A stretch of 35,442 nt of DNA from a virus. The first letter of the stretch is position 1; the number at the start of each line of letters is the position of its first letter. Below the pieces are notes generated by a model. That model made no database searches. It was not told where the DNA came from and saw only the letters and a list, made by a program, of their open reading frames with translations. The translations under genes and the position numbers were made by a program. Positions 50-28,125 of the stretch are shown here, one piece after another. Location: IMG/VR virus record IMGVR_UViG_3300034283_000164, positions 1-35,442 of that record; one strand, given 5' to 3'.

Positions 50-150
50 GATTAGTTAAAATCATTTACTTTTTTCTCATTTCACTTCCATTGGCGGTAT
101 GCTTTTATTTGGGTGCAACCATAATTTTATTTATAAAACCAAAGTTTTGA
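46..150 (+). CDS. 34-aa single-pass membrane microprotein
   Basis: The gene encodes 34 residues starting MRLVKIIYFF. About 25 consecutive hydrophobic residues (6-30) form one transmembrane helix flanked by basic residues (R2, K5; K31, K34), so an inner-membrane location is likely. The start is set by a 4-base ATGA overlap with the nuclease stop, and the stop overlaps the likely TTG start of the next gene. The variant copy at 35156-35260 keeps the frame open and changes one residue (L28 to S). No family is recognised. It is not a clear holin, because it is far from the lysis genes. Confidence 0.6.
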   Translation: MRLVKIIYFFLISLPLAVCFYLGATIILFIKPKF

Positions 151-395
151 GGGATATAACCTATCATTTAGAGAACGCAGTTGAGTACCTTGTTTATGAC
201 TTATCCATTGAGGACATTAAAGAACGAAGGTTAAAAGCGGTCACATATCGGTCCGGGAAGTGCGTTTGTAACTTTATGGGATATCCCCCCAACAAGATTA
301 GCGAATTACGGCAGGTTGGTCGCAAGGTTATTAGCAGACTTGATGGGAAAACATATGCGGTCCGAGTGAAGAAAAAAGTTGAAGATGTTAAGTAA
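147..395 (+). CDS. Small basic conserved hypothetical protein
   Basis: The protein is about 82 residues, rich in Lys/Arg, with a CVC motif in the middle; no family is recognised. The frame is open from an ATG at 99, but TTG at 147 overlaps the previous stop as TTGA and matches the coupling seen elsewhere. That start is therefore preferred, with uncertainty. Coding status is well supported by comparison with the variant copy at 35257-35442: most substitutions (13 of the 16 downstream of 147) fall on third codon positions, and only three residues change (K to E, L to A, E to D). That is purifying selection on this frame. A promoter for the next genes begins inside its 3' end. Confidence 0.75.
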   Translation: MRDITYHLENAVEYLVYDLSIEDIKERRLKAVTYRSGKCVCNFMGYPPNKISELRQVGRKVISRLDGKTYAVRVKKKVEDVK

Positions 396-4267: not shown

Positions 4268-4483
4268 ATGGCACAACAAACAGCAGTAGAATGGTTGGTT
4301 GAACAACTGATACCAAAAGCAATGGTTACTTATGACACTACAACATATAATGCCATTCAAAAAGCAAAAGCAATGGAAAAAGAGCAGATAGTAAATGCAC
4401 ATTTATTTGGATTGTTACGACCTCTTGAAATGGAAGCAACTAAACAAGCAGAACAATACTACAACGAAACCTATAACAAATGA
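4268..4483 (+). CDS. Conserved small Bacteroidetes phage protein
   Basis: The protein is 71 residues, acidic-to-neutral and helical. It has the pattern AVEWLVEQL near the start, a central KAKAMEKEQI helix and a final EQYYNETY. I know this pattern from many Flavobacteria and Bacteroidetes phages, where it has no assigned function. The stop overlaps the next ATG by four bases (ATGA). No catalytic or metal-binding residues are evident. Confidence 0.75.
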   Translation: MAQQTAVEWLVEQLIPKAMVTYDTTTYNAIQKAKAMEKEQIVNAHLFGLLRPLEMEATKQAEQYYNETYNK

Positions 4484-7324: not shown

Positions 7325-7992
7325 TGGAATGGATAGTTAAGGAGTACACCGATAAGGTAAACGCTGACCAAGAACTCAAAGCATACCGAGACTGGATAGA
7401 GGCAAACGCATTCGGATTCGGTGAAAGGTGCTTCCTTTGGATGTGGAATGAGATTGTAGCAAAGATGCCACAAGAATTTACCTTTATGGAAATCGGGGTC
7501 TTTAGAGGTCAGATACTTGGATTACTAAAGTTACTGGCAGACAGACACGGAAAGAATGTTAGGCGAATCGGAATAACTCCACTTGATATGTCCGATGGGC
7601 ATTGGGAATCAGATTACGAAGCAGATATACTTAAACTGCACAAAACATTCAAGATTGAGGAAGACTATGAATTAATCCGATTAGATTCTACCAATCCAAA
7701 CGCAGTCAAACTTGCCTCACAAAATCCTCCCGATGTACTTTACATTGATGGAGGGCATACCTATGAGGTGGTAATGGCAGACCTAAAGAACTATCTCCCA
7801 ATCCTAAAGGTAGGCGGTACACTGGTCATTGATGACTGTAACAATGCTATCCCAATGCCGTGGGGTTACTTCGCAGGGATTCAATCCGTATCAAACGCAG
7901 TAGACCAATTCCTACCAAAGGAAGGACAAACAGAACAATGGAAGCATGAACTTAACTTGGTACACAATAGGGTACTTACAAAATTAAAGTAA
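7321..7992 (+). CDS. SAM-dependent methyltransferase (Methyltransf_24-like)
   Basis: The protein is 223 residues with a class I methyltransferase fold. Motif I is FMEIGVFRGQ (55-64), an acidic strand end is LDMSDGHW, and the hallmark YIDGGHTYE (141-149) is followed by LKVGGTLVIDD (162-172). This family is typical of O-methyltransferases in surface-glycan and lipopolysaccharide cassettes, which use YIDGxHxYE acid residues for metal binding. It closes the glycan cassette and probably caps or decorates the sugar added by the three glycosyltransferases. The next gene starts at its stop. Confidence 0.8.
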   Translation: MMEWIVKEYTDKVNADQELKAYRDWIEANAFGFGERCFLWMWNEIVAKMPQEFTFMEIGVFRGQILGLLKLLADRHGKNVRRIGITPLDMSDGHWESDYEADILKLHKTFKIEEDYELIRLDSTNPNAVKLASQNPPDVLYIDGGHTYEVVMADLKNYLPILKVGGTLVIDDCNNAIPMPWGYFAGIQSVSNAVDQFLPKEGQTEQWKHELNLVHNRVLTKLK

Positions 7993-8420
7993 TGGAAAAG
8001 AAGAAAGGTAAAGGAAGACCTAAAGCAATAGAATCACCTGAAGTGATGTATGAACTCTTTCAAGAGTATTGTCAGCATACCAAAGCAAATCCAATCAAGG
8101 TTAAAGATTGGGTCGGAGGTATGGCAAAACCAGTAATAAGGGAAAAGGAAATTCCATACACCCTTGAAGGGTTTGAGATTTATTGCTTCAAGCAAGGGAT
8201 TATATCGGATTTGGGTAAGTATTTTGCCAATTCGGATGGAGCATACGAGGATTTTCGCACTATCTGCTCTAATATAAGGCGAATCATTAGAGAGGACCAA
8301 ATAAATGGCGGAATGGCAGGTATCTTTAATGCCTCAATCACCCAACGTTTAAACAACTTGGTTGAGAAGACCGAGAACAAGCATGAGGTTTCTGAAATAA
8401 AAATCACCCGTGACCGTTAA
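7992..8420 (+). CDS. terS: Terminase small subunit
   Basis: The protein is 142 residues. The basic start KKKGKGRPK is followed by a helical DNA-binding region. The segments YTLEGFEIYCF, LGKYF, YEDFRTICSNIRR and DQINGGMAGIFNASITQRLN match the gp3-type DNA-packaging proteins of Gram-negative phages. It recognises phage DNA and loads the large terminase for packaging. It lies directly before the large subunit and overlaps it by 11 bases, suggesting translational coupling. Confidence 0.9.
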   Translation: MEKKKGKGRPKAIESPEVMYELFQEYCQHTKANPIKVKDWVGGMAKPVIREKEIPYTLEGFEIYCFKQGIISDLGKYFANSDGAYEDFRTICSNIRRIIREDQINGGMAGIFNASITQRLNNLVEKTENKHEVSEIKITRDR

Positions 8421-9582
8421 TGTAAAACTACATAACCCACACGATGCCCAAAGGAAGGTCATAGATTGCGATAAAAGGTTTATTGTGATGATGGCAGGGC
8501 GAAGGTTTGGTAAGTCCTTAATCAGTCAGACAATTGCCTTAGAAAGCGGTATAGAAGGTAAAAAGGTTGCATACATTACACCGACCTATCAACTTGGAAA
8601 AATATTCTTTCAAGAGTTGTTAGAAATGCTACCTCTTGAAATCTACAAAAAAAACGAAGCAGACTTGGTGATTACCTTTATCACTGGGGGTACAATCCGA
8701 TTCTTTACGGGTGAAAGGTTGGACAATCTCCGAGGTCTGAAGTTTCACCTTTGTATCATAGATGAGGCATCTTTCATCCCTGACCTTGAAGGAGGTTGGT
8801 TAAACTCAATCAGACCTACCCTAACAGATTACAAGGGTAAAGCATTGTTCTTGTCTACTCCAAAGGGTAAAAACTACTTTTACTCATTGTTTATGAAAGG
8901 GAACGGAGGTGAGGAAGATTGGCAAAGTTTCAAGTTTAGTACCTATGATAATCCGTACATAGACAAGTCAGAGGTTGATAGTGCAAGGATGCAACTGCCT
9001 GAGGTAGTCTTTGAGCAAGAGTACATGGCAAACCCTGCCGAGAATGCTGCCAATCCTTTCGGGTCTGCTTACATAAGGCAATGCATCTTTCCGATGTCTA
9101 ATGGTCCTGTTGCTTGTTATGGCATTGACCTTGCCAAAGCGGTAGACTGGACTGTGGTGATAGGTTTGGACAAGAACGGGTCTGTATGCCATTATGAACG
9201 CTTCCAAAGGGATTGGAGGCAAACTAAGGAGTACATTGTTAATCTACCTAAAGCACCAATCCTGATGGATTCTACGGGGGTAGGAGACCCAATCTTTGAG
9301 GATATGCAACGTGAGGGATTAGATGTGCAAGGGTATAAGTTTAGCAGTACAAGCAAACAGATGCTAATGGAGGGTCTTGCCTCTGCCATTCACCAAAGGA
9401 AAATAACATTCCCACCAGGTCCTATCGTTGATGAACTTGAAATCTTTGAGTACCAATATACCTCATTCGGGGTAAAGTATTCTGCACCTCAGGGATTCCA
9501 TGATGACTGCGTTGTCAGTCTTTCCCTTGCTTGGCAGCACCTCCAAAAGAATGTGGGGAGTGGGAGGTATTCATTCGCATAG
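8410..9582 (+). CDS. terL: Terminase large subunit
   Basis: The protein is 390 residues, a compact large terminase. The ATPase half has Walker A AGRRFGKS (29-36), Walker B CIIDEA (115-120) and coupling motif STPKG (149-153). The RNase H-like nuclease half has acidic residues at GIDLA (D240), MDSTGVGD (D287) and HDD (375-376). It cuts concatemers and pumps DNA into proheads. The start is GTG at 8410; no ATG lies close in frame and the overlap with terS supports it. The TAG stop sits at the start of a G-rich iteron array, and a gene-free region follows. Confidence 0.95.
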   Translation: MTVNVKLHNPHDAQRKVIDCDKRFIVMMAGRRFGKSLISQTIALESGIEGKKVAYITPTYQLGKIFFQELLEMLPLEIYKKNEADLVITFITGGTIRFFTGERLDNLRGLKFHLCIIDEASFIPDLEGGWLNSIRPTLTDYKGKALFLSTPKGKNYFYSLFMKGNGGEEDWQSFKFSTYDNPYIDKSEVDSARMQLPEVVFEQEYMANPAENAANPFGSAYIRQCIFPMSNGPVACYGIDLAKAVDWTVVIGLDKNGSVCHYERFQRDWRQTKEYIVNLPKAPILMDSTGVGDPIFEDMQREGLDVQGYKFSSTSKQMLMEGLASAIHQRKITFPPGPIVDELEIFEYQYTSFGVKYSAPQGFHDDCVVSLSLAWQHLQKNVGSGRYSFA

Positions 9583-9620
9583 GGGGAATTAGGGGGAAAC
9601 GGGGGGAAGTCGGGGGGAAA
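9581..9620. repeat. Four tandem 10-bp G-rich iterons with G-quadruplex potential
   Basis: The units at 9581-9590, 9591-9600, 9601-9610 and 9611-9620 each read N-GGGGG followed by A/G-rich bases (mostly AA plus two variable bases). The G-runs are 9582-9586, 9592-9596, 9601-9606 and 9612-9617, with loops of 5, 4 and 5 bases, an ideal single-strand quadruplex on the + strand and in terminase mRNA. The 10-bp period puts each unit on the same face of the helix. Candidate roles are a protein-binding iteron in an origin, a packaging site, or an RNA quadruplex at the end of the terminase message. Confidence 0.8.
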
Positions 9621-9630
9621 CTACTTTTTT

Positions 9631-9674
9631 TAAAATATTTTACTAAAAAAGTTAGTTATCTAAAATATTTAGTA
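9631..9674. repeat. AT-rich direct repeats beside the iterons
   Basis: TAAAATATTT occurs at 9631-9640 and 9661-9670, exactly 30 bp apart, each followed by a similar A/T run ending in TA (to 9645 and 9674). The stretch 9621-9680 is nearly pure A/T. Next to G-rich iterons it resembles an easily melted element or paired operator half-sites; it also overlaps the promoter at 9652-9680. Confidence 0.5.
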
Positions 9675-9680
9675 TTTTTG
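9652..9680 (+). promoter_or_regulatory. Promoter candidate for the small RNA
   Basis: TATTTTTG at 9673-9680 is a perfect TAnnTTTG -7 element. The -33 element is weaker: TTAG at 9652-9655, 17 bases upstream. Transcription would begin near 9686, immediately before the first hairpin of the candidate RNA. Confidence 0.45.
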
Positions 9681-9686
9681 CTATGT

Positions 9687-9781
9687 CAATCCGAAAGATA
9701 GTAGAGTATGTTTCGGGTTTGATTCATGCAAACCTGCATCAATTAGACCCACCTGCTCTACCAGTGTGGGTTCTTTTTTTT
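9687..9781 (+). ncRNA. Candidate ~95-nt phage small RNA with three hairpins
   Basis: Three helices lie back to back. Hairpin 1 pairs 9688-9696 with 9711-9719 (9 bp, one G-U, 14-base loop). Hairpin 2 pairs 9720-9730 with 9735-9745 (11 positions, one C-C mismatch, loop AACC). Hairpin 3 is the intrinsic terminator at 9747-9781. Spacers between helices are 0 and 1 base, so almost every base from the predicted start to the terminator is structured. No reading frame of useful length exists, and a promoter lies directly upstream. It does not look like a tRNA. It resembles an independent regulatory or structural RNA; its adjacency to terL recalls packaging or priming RNAs, but no known family is recognised. 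Confidence 0.5.
9747..9781 (+). terminator. Intrinsic terminator of the small RNA
   Basis: ACCCACCTG (9747-9755) pairs with CAG-T-GTGGGT (9762-9771, one bulged T). The loop is CTCTAC, followed by TTC and eight T (9774-9781). The tail GGGTTCTTTTTT is shared with the terminator at 31566-31598. Confidence 0.75.
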
Positions 9782-10093
9782 ACCTACCTTTGGATGATTG
9801 GGTCTTAACACGGGTTCACCCCAACTTTAGCACAAAAAGTAAATGAATGAACGTGTCATCTATGCTTAACAGTTCGCCTCGGTAACGGACTGGAGATGAT
9901 AAGAACGGAATAAAGTGGTAGTAATTACAATGATAACTACCGACAAGGATAACCAAAAAAACCCGTTCTCCCTTCTTGGATAGGGGTGCATAGTTTGGCA
10001 ATGATTGGGAGTGCATAAAGAATCCCAAGACATCAAGGGTATCCTTGGATAGACATTGTATTACACTTAACTAAGAATAAACTATTTAAAGGT
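9782..10093 (+). other. Gene-free, hairpin-rich leader before the structural operon
   Basis: No credible gene lies here. Hairpins can be drawn at 9798-9824 (TTGGG/CCCAA), 9870-9892 (CAGTTCG/CGGACTG, one G-U), 9917-9941 (GGTAGT/ACTACC), 10005-10028 (TTGGGA/TCCCAA) and 10034-10047 (CAAGG/CCTTG). A longer-range helix, AGAACGG (9902-9908) with CCGTTCT (9963-9969), encloses the third. CTTGGATAG is repeated at 9975-9983 and 10044-10052. A lone TACCTTTG at 9785-9792 could be a -7 element, giving a ~295-base structured 5' leader to the tail chaperone gene. It could instead be part of an origin or packaging locus. Confidence 0.4.
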
Positions 10094-27783: not shown

Positions 27784-28125
27784 ATGACAACGTACAAATG
27801 GATTATTTCGCAAATGAATGAGTACCCAACTACTGCTGACAACCTTACCGATGTTGTGTTCACCGTACATTGGAGGAGACAAGCAGAGCAAGTTGATGGT
27901 GATAAGACTTGGTTCGCTGAAACCTATGGTGCTCAGAGCGTACCTCCTCCTGCTCCCGACAATTTCACCCCATATGCTGACCTAACTCAAGCAATCGTTG
28001 AGGGATGGTTGGAAAGTGGACTTGATGTGGCGGTAATTGATGCATCACTTGACGTGCAAATTGAGAACCAAAAGAACCCAAAAGAAGTAACCCTTCCTTT
28101 GCCTTGGTTGACAAATAATATATAA
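27784..28125 (+). CDS. Small phage protein after the fibre (DUF7936-like)
   Basis: The protein is 113 residues. The start TYKWIISQMNEYPTTADNLTDVVFTVHWRRQA and the C-terminal YADLTQAIVEGWLESGL and ending PLPW match a small conserved family I recall downstream of fibre genes in marine and Bacteroidetes phages. That recall is not checked. Function is unknown; it may be a virion accessory or fibre-associated protein. The promoter for the lysis genes overlaps its 3' end. Confidence 0.6.
   Translation: MTTYKWIISQMNEYPTTADNLTDVVFTVHWRRQAEQVDGDKTWFAETYGAQSVPPPAPDNFTPYADLTQAIVEGWLESGLDVAVIDASLDVQIENQKNPKEVTLPLPWLTNNI

Follow-up and report, generated by a model that had tools for sequence, protein, structure and literature searches.

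Phages of the Bacteroidota type carry a genuine small RNA, not described before, as comparison of related phages shows; the apical loops of two of its three hairpins are perfect complements of each other. This match between loop 1 and loop 3 is the main feature of the RNA and was overlooked by the first-pass annotation, a reading of the same DNA that had proposed a new small RNA at this place. The proposal itself is borne out by the fixed position of the promoter, a conserved structure with compensatory changes and the lack of an Rfam match. The window (the whole stretch of DNA analysed) is IMG/VR virus record IMGVR_UViG_3300034283_000164, 35,442 bp, whose plus strand carries its main open reading frames (Table 1).

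Table 1. Features in and around the small RNA, in positions of the window.
Feature	Position	Strand	Basis or remark
TerS	7992-8420	+	phrog_606
TerL	8410-9582	+	phrog_2
Putative -33-like element TTAG	9652-9655	+	placed by position
-7 promoter box TAnnTTTG (TATTTTTG)	9673-9680	+	Bacteroidota sigma-ABfr type
Likely RNA 5' end	G9685	+	near GUCAAUCC; set from the promoter
Small RNA unit	9685-9781	+	covariance model, 47-sequence alignment; start set from the promoter
Hairpin 1 (H1)	9688-9719	+	fold; 96.9% of alignment cells paired, three pairs with double-sided changes
Loop 1 (GUAGAG), 5' kissing partner	9701-9706	+	complementary to loop 3; covariation
Hairpin 2 (H2)	9721-9744	+	inner stem covaries; outer stem weakly conserved; loop usually AACC-like
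Hairpin 3 (H3), terminator stem	9746-9772	+	99.2% of alignment cells paired, three pairs with double-sided changes
Loop 3 (CUCUAC), 3' kissing partner	9756-9761	+	complementary to loop 1; covariation
U-tract of the intrinsic terminator	9773-9781	+	U-rich after GGGUU in aligned relatives
Possible second -7 box (TACCTTTG), before the module	9785-9792	+	position behind the terminator stem
Downstream module, type beta	9796-10052	+	RNAalifold structure; no Rfam match
P0 remnant GAUUGG, potential pairing partner of the RNA 5' end (UCAAUC)	9796-9801	+	weak in the window
Direct repeat CTTGGATAG, internal copy in beta module	9975-9983	+	repeat family D4
Direct repeat CTTGGATAG, 3'-end copy in beta module	10044-10052	+	repeat family D4

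Promoter, extent and terminator

The -7 box of the window, which fits the Bacteroidota consensus TAnnTTTG (PMC7366714), stands 12 nt before the likely start G9685. This spacing places the start of the RNA probably 2 nt upstream of the 9687 given by the first-pass annotation, whose discrete unit of ~95 nt (9687-9781) is otherwise kept. The motif TAnnTTYG occurs exactly at -12 in 57 of 59 relatives, the upstream and flanking sequence being otherwise different (chance about 0.2% per site), so the -7 element proposed earlier holds at a constant distance. Motifs of the TTTG/TTGG/TTAG type cluster at -33 to -36 in relatives. The TAnnTTTG promoter type suggests a Bacteroidota host, which we infer from it.

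Directly 3' of hairpin 3 the window has a U-tract (9774-9781), and a hairpin followed by a U-rich tract recurs at the end of the unit in relatives. The intrinsic terminator that had been claimed is upheld by this pattern, though a simple terminator scan of the window did not list 9774-9781. No conserved open reading frame was found over the small RNA, in agreement with the lack of coding capacity noted before.

Relatives and database searches

About 50 distinct relatives of the small RNA occur in other phages from metagenomes, some of them on fragmentary contigs, with a single copy per genome. Among relatives in terL and g2 the unit is present in about 30 loci at 76-99% identity, with flanks that are otherwise variable. 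Pattern scans of viral contigs yielded 47 distinct sequences with strictly defined ends. A covariance model made from these matched the window at 9685-9776 with an E-value of 4.5e-16, the window sequence itself being among the 47. A search with such a model, proposed by the first-pass annotation, scored strongly once per genome in 15 phage records; neither the more distant terL clade nor relatives with a short terL-g2 gap had a copy. As pattern scans reach only close relatives, the family is probably wider than found here.

No true match was present in a collection with one genome each for 84,980 bacterial and archaeal species, and 17 pattern matches in bacterial and archaeal genome contigs, considered as possible prophage or bacterial copies, were all judged by their sequence to be chance. 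The stretch in L113 was also searched without a real match. No GenBank phage matched the small-RNA stretch, the relatives of terL among annotated phages are less than 60% identical, and blastn matches to Polaribacter phage P12002L and Bacteroides phage BF486P2 were set aside as chance. Rfam 15 gave zero matches at gathering score for the window and 15 related loci, and Rfam searches by E-value returned only weak, implausible matches plus one tRNA, which fits the earlier remark that the fold belongs to no known family. A tRNA or tRNA fragment was rejected, as ARAGORN found none in the window.

Three-hairpin fold

The stretch 9687-9781 folds as three consecutive hairpins at -32.7 kcal/mol (z -5.3), with 0 of 200 shuffles equally good. 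In the alignment the stems of H1, H2 and H3 covary independently of one another. The first-pass annotation had proposed a search for compensatory changes in the two upstream hairpins, and these were found in H1 and in the inner stem of H2, the outer stem of H2 being weak in this respect. Here the outermost pair is broken in 26 of the 47 sequences, while the other three outer pairs are mostly kept and the diverged L205 has the outermost pair restored with swapped letters. Uncompensated changes that break helices, named beforehand as evidence against an RNA, were also looked for in the alignment; its changes are compensatory and favour an RNA. The stems contain 202 G-U cells, each of which would be an A-C mismatch on the opposite strand, so the RNA is the plus strand.

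Complementarity of loops 1 and 3

The loops of H1 and H3 are 7 nt long (6 nt in the window), and are perfect Watson-Crick complements over 6-8 nt in all 47 distinct sequences. Between them these sequences have 21 different loop pairs, and when loops of different classes were paired with each other only 6.7% matched over at least 6 nt. All seven loop-loop pairs of the alignment have double-sided changes, with 98.8% of cells paired, a covariation that no shuffle reached. In a blind covariation scan of all 5356 column pairs, with no structure supplied, all seven ranked among the first 11. The kissing helix contains one G-U cell, compared to the 202 of the stems, and in most sequences complementarity ends at the loop edges. 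In the 6-nt variant the deletions co-occur in both loops. The strongly diverged L205 and L206, found only via their downstream module, keep the loop-loop match and P0 (the pairing of the RNA 5' end with the first module bases) in other letters. Taken together, the complementarity, the double-sided changes and the ranks in the blind scan identify the small RNA as a kissing-loop RNA. The three back-to-back hairpins of the first-pass annotation thus stand as a fold, but not as independent elements, since loop 1 is the complement of loop 3 and covaries with it.

Loops aimed at neighbouring sequence were rejected, as loop 7-mers were not above chance in the 300-350 nt flanks.

Could the match of the loops persist even if no RNA contact were under selection? 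H1 is roughly an inverted copy of H3, and template switching between inverted repeats at the DNA level (quasi-palindrome correction) could produce paired mutations and would account for paired changes without G-U intermediates. The homology ends at the loops, however, though the flanks could be corrected by the same process, and the three stems covary independently and contain G-U pairs that indicate a strand-specific RNA. We consider this origin of the loop match very improbable, though template switching may have supplied the paired mutations.

A structured module behind the terminator

A second structured RNA lies behind the terminator in all 52 distinct loci that could be tested, that is, those with at least 250 nt of downstream sequence. 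Structures were predicted for each of five module types, unrelated in sequence: alpha (27 loci), beta (11, including the window), delta (6), gamma (4) and epsilon (4); beta and epsilon have their first ~20 bases in common and differ beyond. Scans with alpha and beta/epsilon patterns found a small RNA upstream of every module except one at a contig end. The delta scan gave coding matches in addition to the known loci. In three close relatives, L008, L009 and L020, the gap between terL and g2 is 38-39 bp and holds neither small RNA nor module. Since such relatives exist, the small RNA is evidently not essential.

A second -7 box within 45 nt of the terminator stem is found in 22 of 58 relatives, compared to 3.4 expected, all of them of the window's phage type. 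It may start the module separately in these 22 loci, which include the window.

The P0 pairing has a mean score of 14.4, compared to 8.2 for shuffled sequences. It is individually below 0.05 in 26 of 58 cases and reaches up to 9 bp in phages of 49-64 kb. It occurs in compensatory forms (GUCAAU/AUUGAC, GUCAGU/ACUGAC, GUCCA/UGGAC and GUAAAU/AUUUGC), L154, L205 and L206 being among the loci concerned. Pairing with such matching changes suggests that, at least in the 49-64 kb phages, the small RNA and its module are one longer RNA.

Modules, including alpha and delta modules of related loci, carry a short direct repeat in an internal and a 3'-end copy about 70-90 nt apart. In alpha modules both copies change together between phages (for example GGAGTAG, GGAATAG, GGTATAG and GGACTG, compared by eye). 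L115, L090 and L012 have insertions beside the module, behind the small RNA or between the two, that resemble tRNA and contain a T-arm motif (CAGGTTCGAATCCTG); ARAGORN did not recognise those of L115 and L090, the two loci it was run on, as tRNA genes.

A nested alternative fold

With downstream sequence included, the lowest-energy fold of the window becomes a nested one (-43.6 kcal/mol). The case for three hairpins therefore comes from covariation, not from energy alone. The nested fold, fold B, has a duplex of L1 and L3 (GGGUUUGAUU/AAUUAGACCC), the same loop pairing as in the kiss, and then P0. At terminator length fold B and the three-hairpin fold A are nearly equal (on average -31.1 and -31.7 kcal/mol), and fold B is lower in energy in 38 of 50 read-through sequences; the folding model used omits the energy of the kissing contact.

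These energies would suit a transcription attenuator for the module, in which fold A would end transcription and fold B would allow or stabilise read-through. The complete coupling of the small RNA to a module would also fit, as would P0, whose compensatory changes preserve a link between the 5' end and the first bases of the module. However, no pair of the helix that only fold B contains has changed on both sides, and one of its pairs is broken in 4 sequences, whereas the H1 and H3 stems of fold A covary. The end of the loop match at the loop edges also argues against attenuation, P0 can form only once the terminator has been passed, and in the 22 loci with a second -7 box the module may be transcribed from a separate promoter. 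An attenuator is, in our estimate, unlikely. Because the H1 and H3 stems covary and the helix specific to fold B lacks compensatory change, we favour the three-hairpin fold with kissing loops over the nested one.

Genome position

In the window and its relatives the small RNA lies between terL and the tail genes, and its place behind terL had been read as a hint of a role in packaging. A packaging RNA like the phi29 pRNA, working with the neighbouring terminase, would fit that place, and pRNA likewise has two complementary loops on one RNA (PMC7357161). In the 49-64 kb phages, however, the small RNA lies among early genes (dNMP kinase, ERF annealing protein, methylases and a primase-helicase-like protein), and in G003, the only one of these phages mapped fully, terL is 15 kb away on the opposite strand. 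The terL of the 49-64 kb phages belongs to another family and was missed by a search with phrog_2. In addition, the close relatives L008, L009 and L020 have a nearly identical terL but no small RNA, and the window has a TerS and a TerL of its own. The packaging hint does not survive these comparisons; a packaging RNA is largely refuted by position, and we regard it as extremely improbable.

The 49-64 kb phages have almost no protein in common with the window. The shared proteins are the family of the window's 4268-4483 open reading frame, a 72-aa open reading frame and segments of tail proteins, and there are two protein matches to single phages (window 99-395 and window 27784-28125). A shared protein partner across phages was rejected, since nothing beyond these was held in common. 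What the phages share is therefore the RNA cassette itself, which appears to spread on its own.

The short open reading frame family at 4268-4483 (MAQQTAVEWLVEQL...KEQI...YYNETYN) is present in otherwise unrelated 49-64 kb phages and in several copies in some terL relatives.

The interval between terL and g2 is a hotspot of extra genes (for example in L003, L004, L084, L101 and L092), among them HNH-type endonucleases, DNA methyltransferases and many small open reading frames, named from reading their translations; within the window's clade its size runs from 38 bp to more than 1.8 kb. Open reading frames resembling HNH homing endonucleases lie directly 3' of terL in L031, L027, L004, L101 and L103, of which L031 and L103 are without the small RNA. 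Directly after the terL stop, window positions 9582-9620 hold four runs of 5-6 G (GGGGGAATTAGGGGGAAACGGGGGGAAGTCGGGGGG), a possible G-quadruplex, and comparable G-runs follow terL in L007, L010, L024, L092 and L093.

A replication origin or primer was rejected, as the cumulative GC skew does not turn near 9.7 kb, a weak test where the main genes all run in one direction.

Comparison with known RNAs

The phi29 pRNA is a phage RNA of ~120 nt in which two different hairpin loops are mutually complementary, as loops 1 and 3 are here, and its end pairing resembles P0. Its loop pairing is 4 nt (AACC/GGUU; PMC7357161), whereas the small RNA pairs over 6-8 nt and has an intrinsic terminator inside hairpin 3. 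The pRNA has been described as unique to phi29-like phages (PMC11476376). The small RNA does not show this restriction to phi29-like phages and their packaging ATPase: it is unlinked to a packaging gene in other phages, and the window has a classical TerS/TerL pair.

Among the structured RNAs of bacteria and phages, GOLLD, ROOL and OLE (the first two in phages) need no protein to assemble; kissing loops are among their contacts, and their intermolecular contacts covary (PMC12286853). As with these RNAs, tRNA-like sequences are found near some copies of the small RNA. They are several hundred nt long, in contrast to the constant 95-nt unit here, which has its own terminator and different 3' modules, and their covariance models gave no Rfam match at gathering score. 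The loop complementarity that a homo-oligomer built by kissing loops would use is present in the small RNA.

RNA I and RNA II of ColE1 offer another three-hairpin small RNA with kissing loops, of 6-7 nt. As these two RNAs come from opposite strands of the same DNA, their match is automatic, whereas both loops of the small RNA lie in one RNA and each must change separately. An antisense target on the opposite strand, as in ColE1, does not fit the small RNA, as both loops are on one strand and the stems pair better on the plus strand.

With attenuators and riboswitch platforms the small RNA has in common a terminator hairpin before a downstream element and a nested alternative fold. It differs in that what follows the hairpin is noncoding RNA, of five types, in that the terminator loop is itself paired and in that the helix particular to the alternative fold shows no covariation.

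Proposed mechanism and significance

What the sequence comparisons themselves establish is the RNA unit with its fold, the complementarity of the two loops and the tie to a downstream structured RNA. We propose that this phage noncoding RNA of ~95 nt would form three hairpins whose H1 and H3 apical loops would pair by strict Watson-Crick contacts. Pairing would be more likely between copies of the RNA, giving a head-to-tail dimer, chain or ring: a closed H2 joins H1 and H3 at one junction, and a 7-bp kiss needs their stems end to end, a geometric argument for contact between molecules. As the loops vary between phages yet always match themselves, assembly would be specific to a phage's own RNA, and the unit would act as a domain for self-recognition and assembly. 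It would be made in two forms: as a small RNA that ends at the terminator, and, by read-through, as the P0-closed 5' domain of a longer RNA whose 3' module would be of one of five interchangeable types. Loop-loop assembly has a precedent in the phi29 pRNA (PMC7357161), and in GOLLD and ROOL covarying contacts proved intermolecular (PMC12286853).

Covariation looks alike for pairing within one molecule and between molecules, and the same loop covariation would fit a kiss within one molecule. The RNA would then be a compact pseudoknotted particle, with H1 and H3 kissing and the outer H2 open, that protects the RNA or presents a protein-binding surface. Many kissing loops of known RNAs are intramolecular. 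The inner stem of H2 covaries and its outer stem is weak, so linkers could just span the distance if it opened, and the near-equal stability of the nested fold also counts against the reading between molecules. However, the three outer H2 pairs that are largely kept, and the outermost pair restored in L205, would tie H1 to H3 at the base, an obstacle to a coaxial kiss of 7 bp. We consider an intramolecular kiss unlikely, while giving it serious weight. The reading we favour, tentatively and at a little less than an even chance, is that the RNA assembles with itself by way of the loops of H1 and H3, more probably between molecules than within one, as a unit joined to five interchangeable modules.

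A broader proposal, of a horizontally spread, protein-independent phage RNA cassette with a self-assembling 5' unit, diversifying loops and at least five interchangeable large RNAs, is more doubtful. If true, the cassette would be a modular self-assembling RNA system without known counterpart.

To our knowledge few natural self-assembling RNAs are known, and the phage examples pRNA, GOLLD and ROOL have been informative on RNA quaternary structure. The present family is small in size, with about 50 natural variants and 21 loop pairs that match themselves, and its members can easily be transcribed and mixed. It therefore permits a direct test of whether nature diversifies RNA loops for self-specific assembly; the five linked module types add other structured RNAs not yet described.
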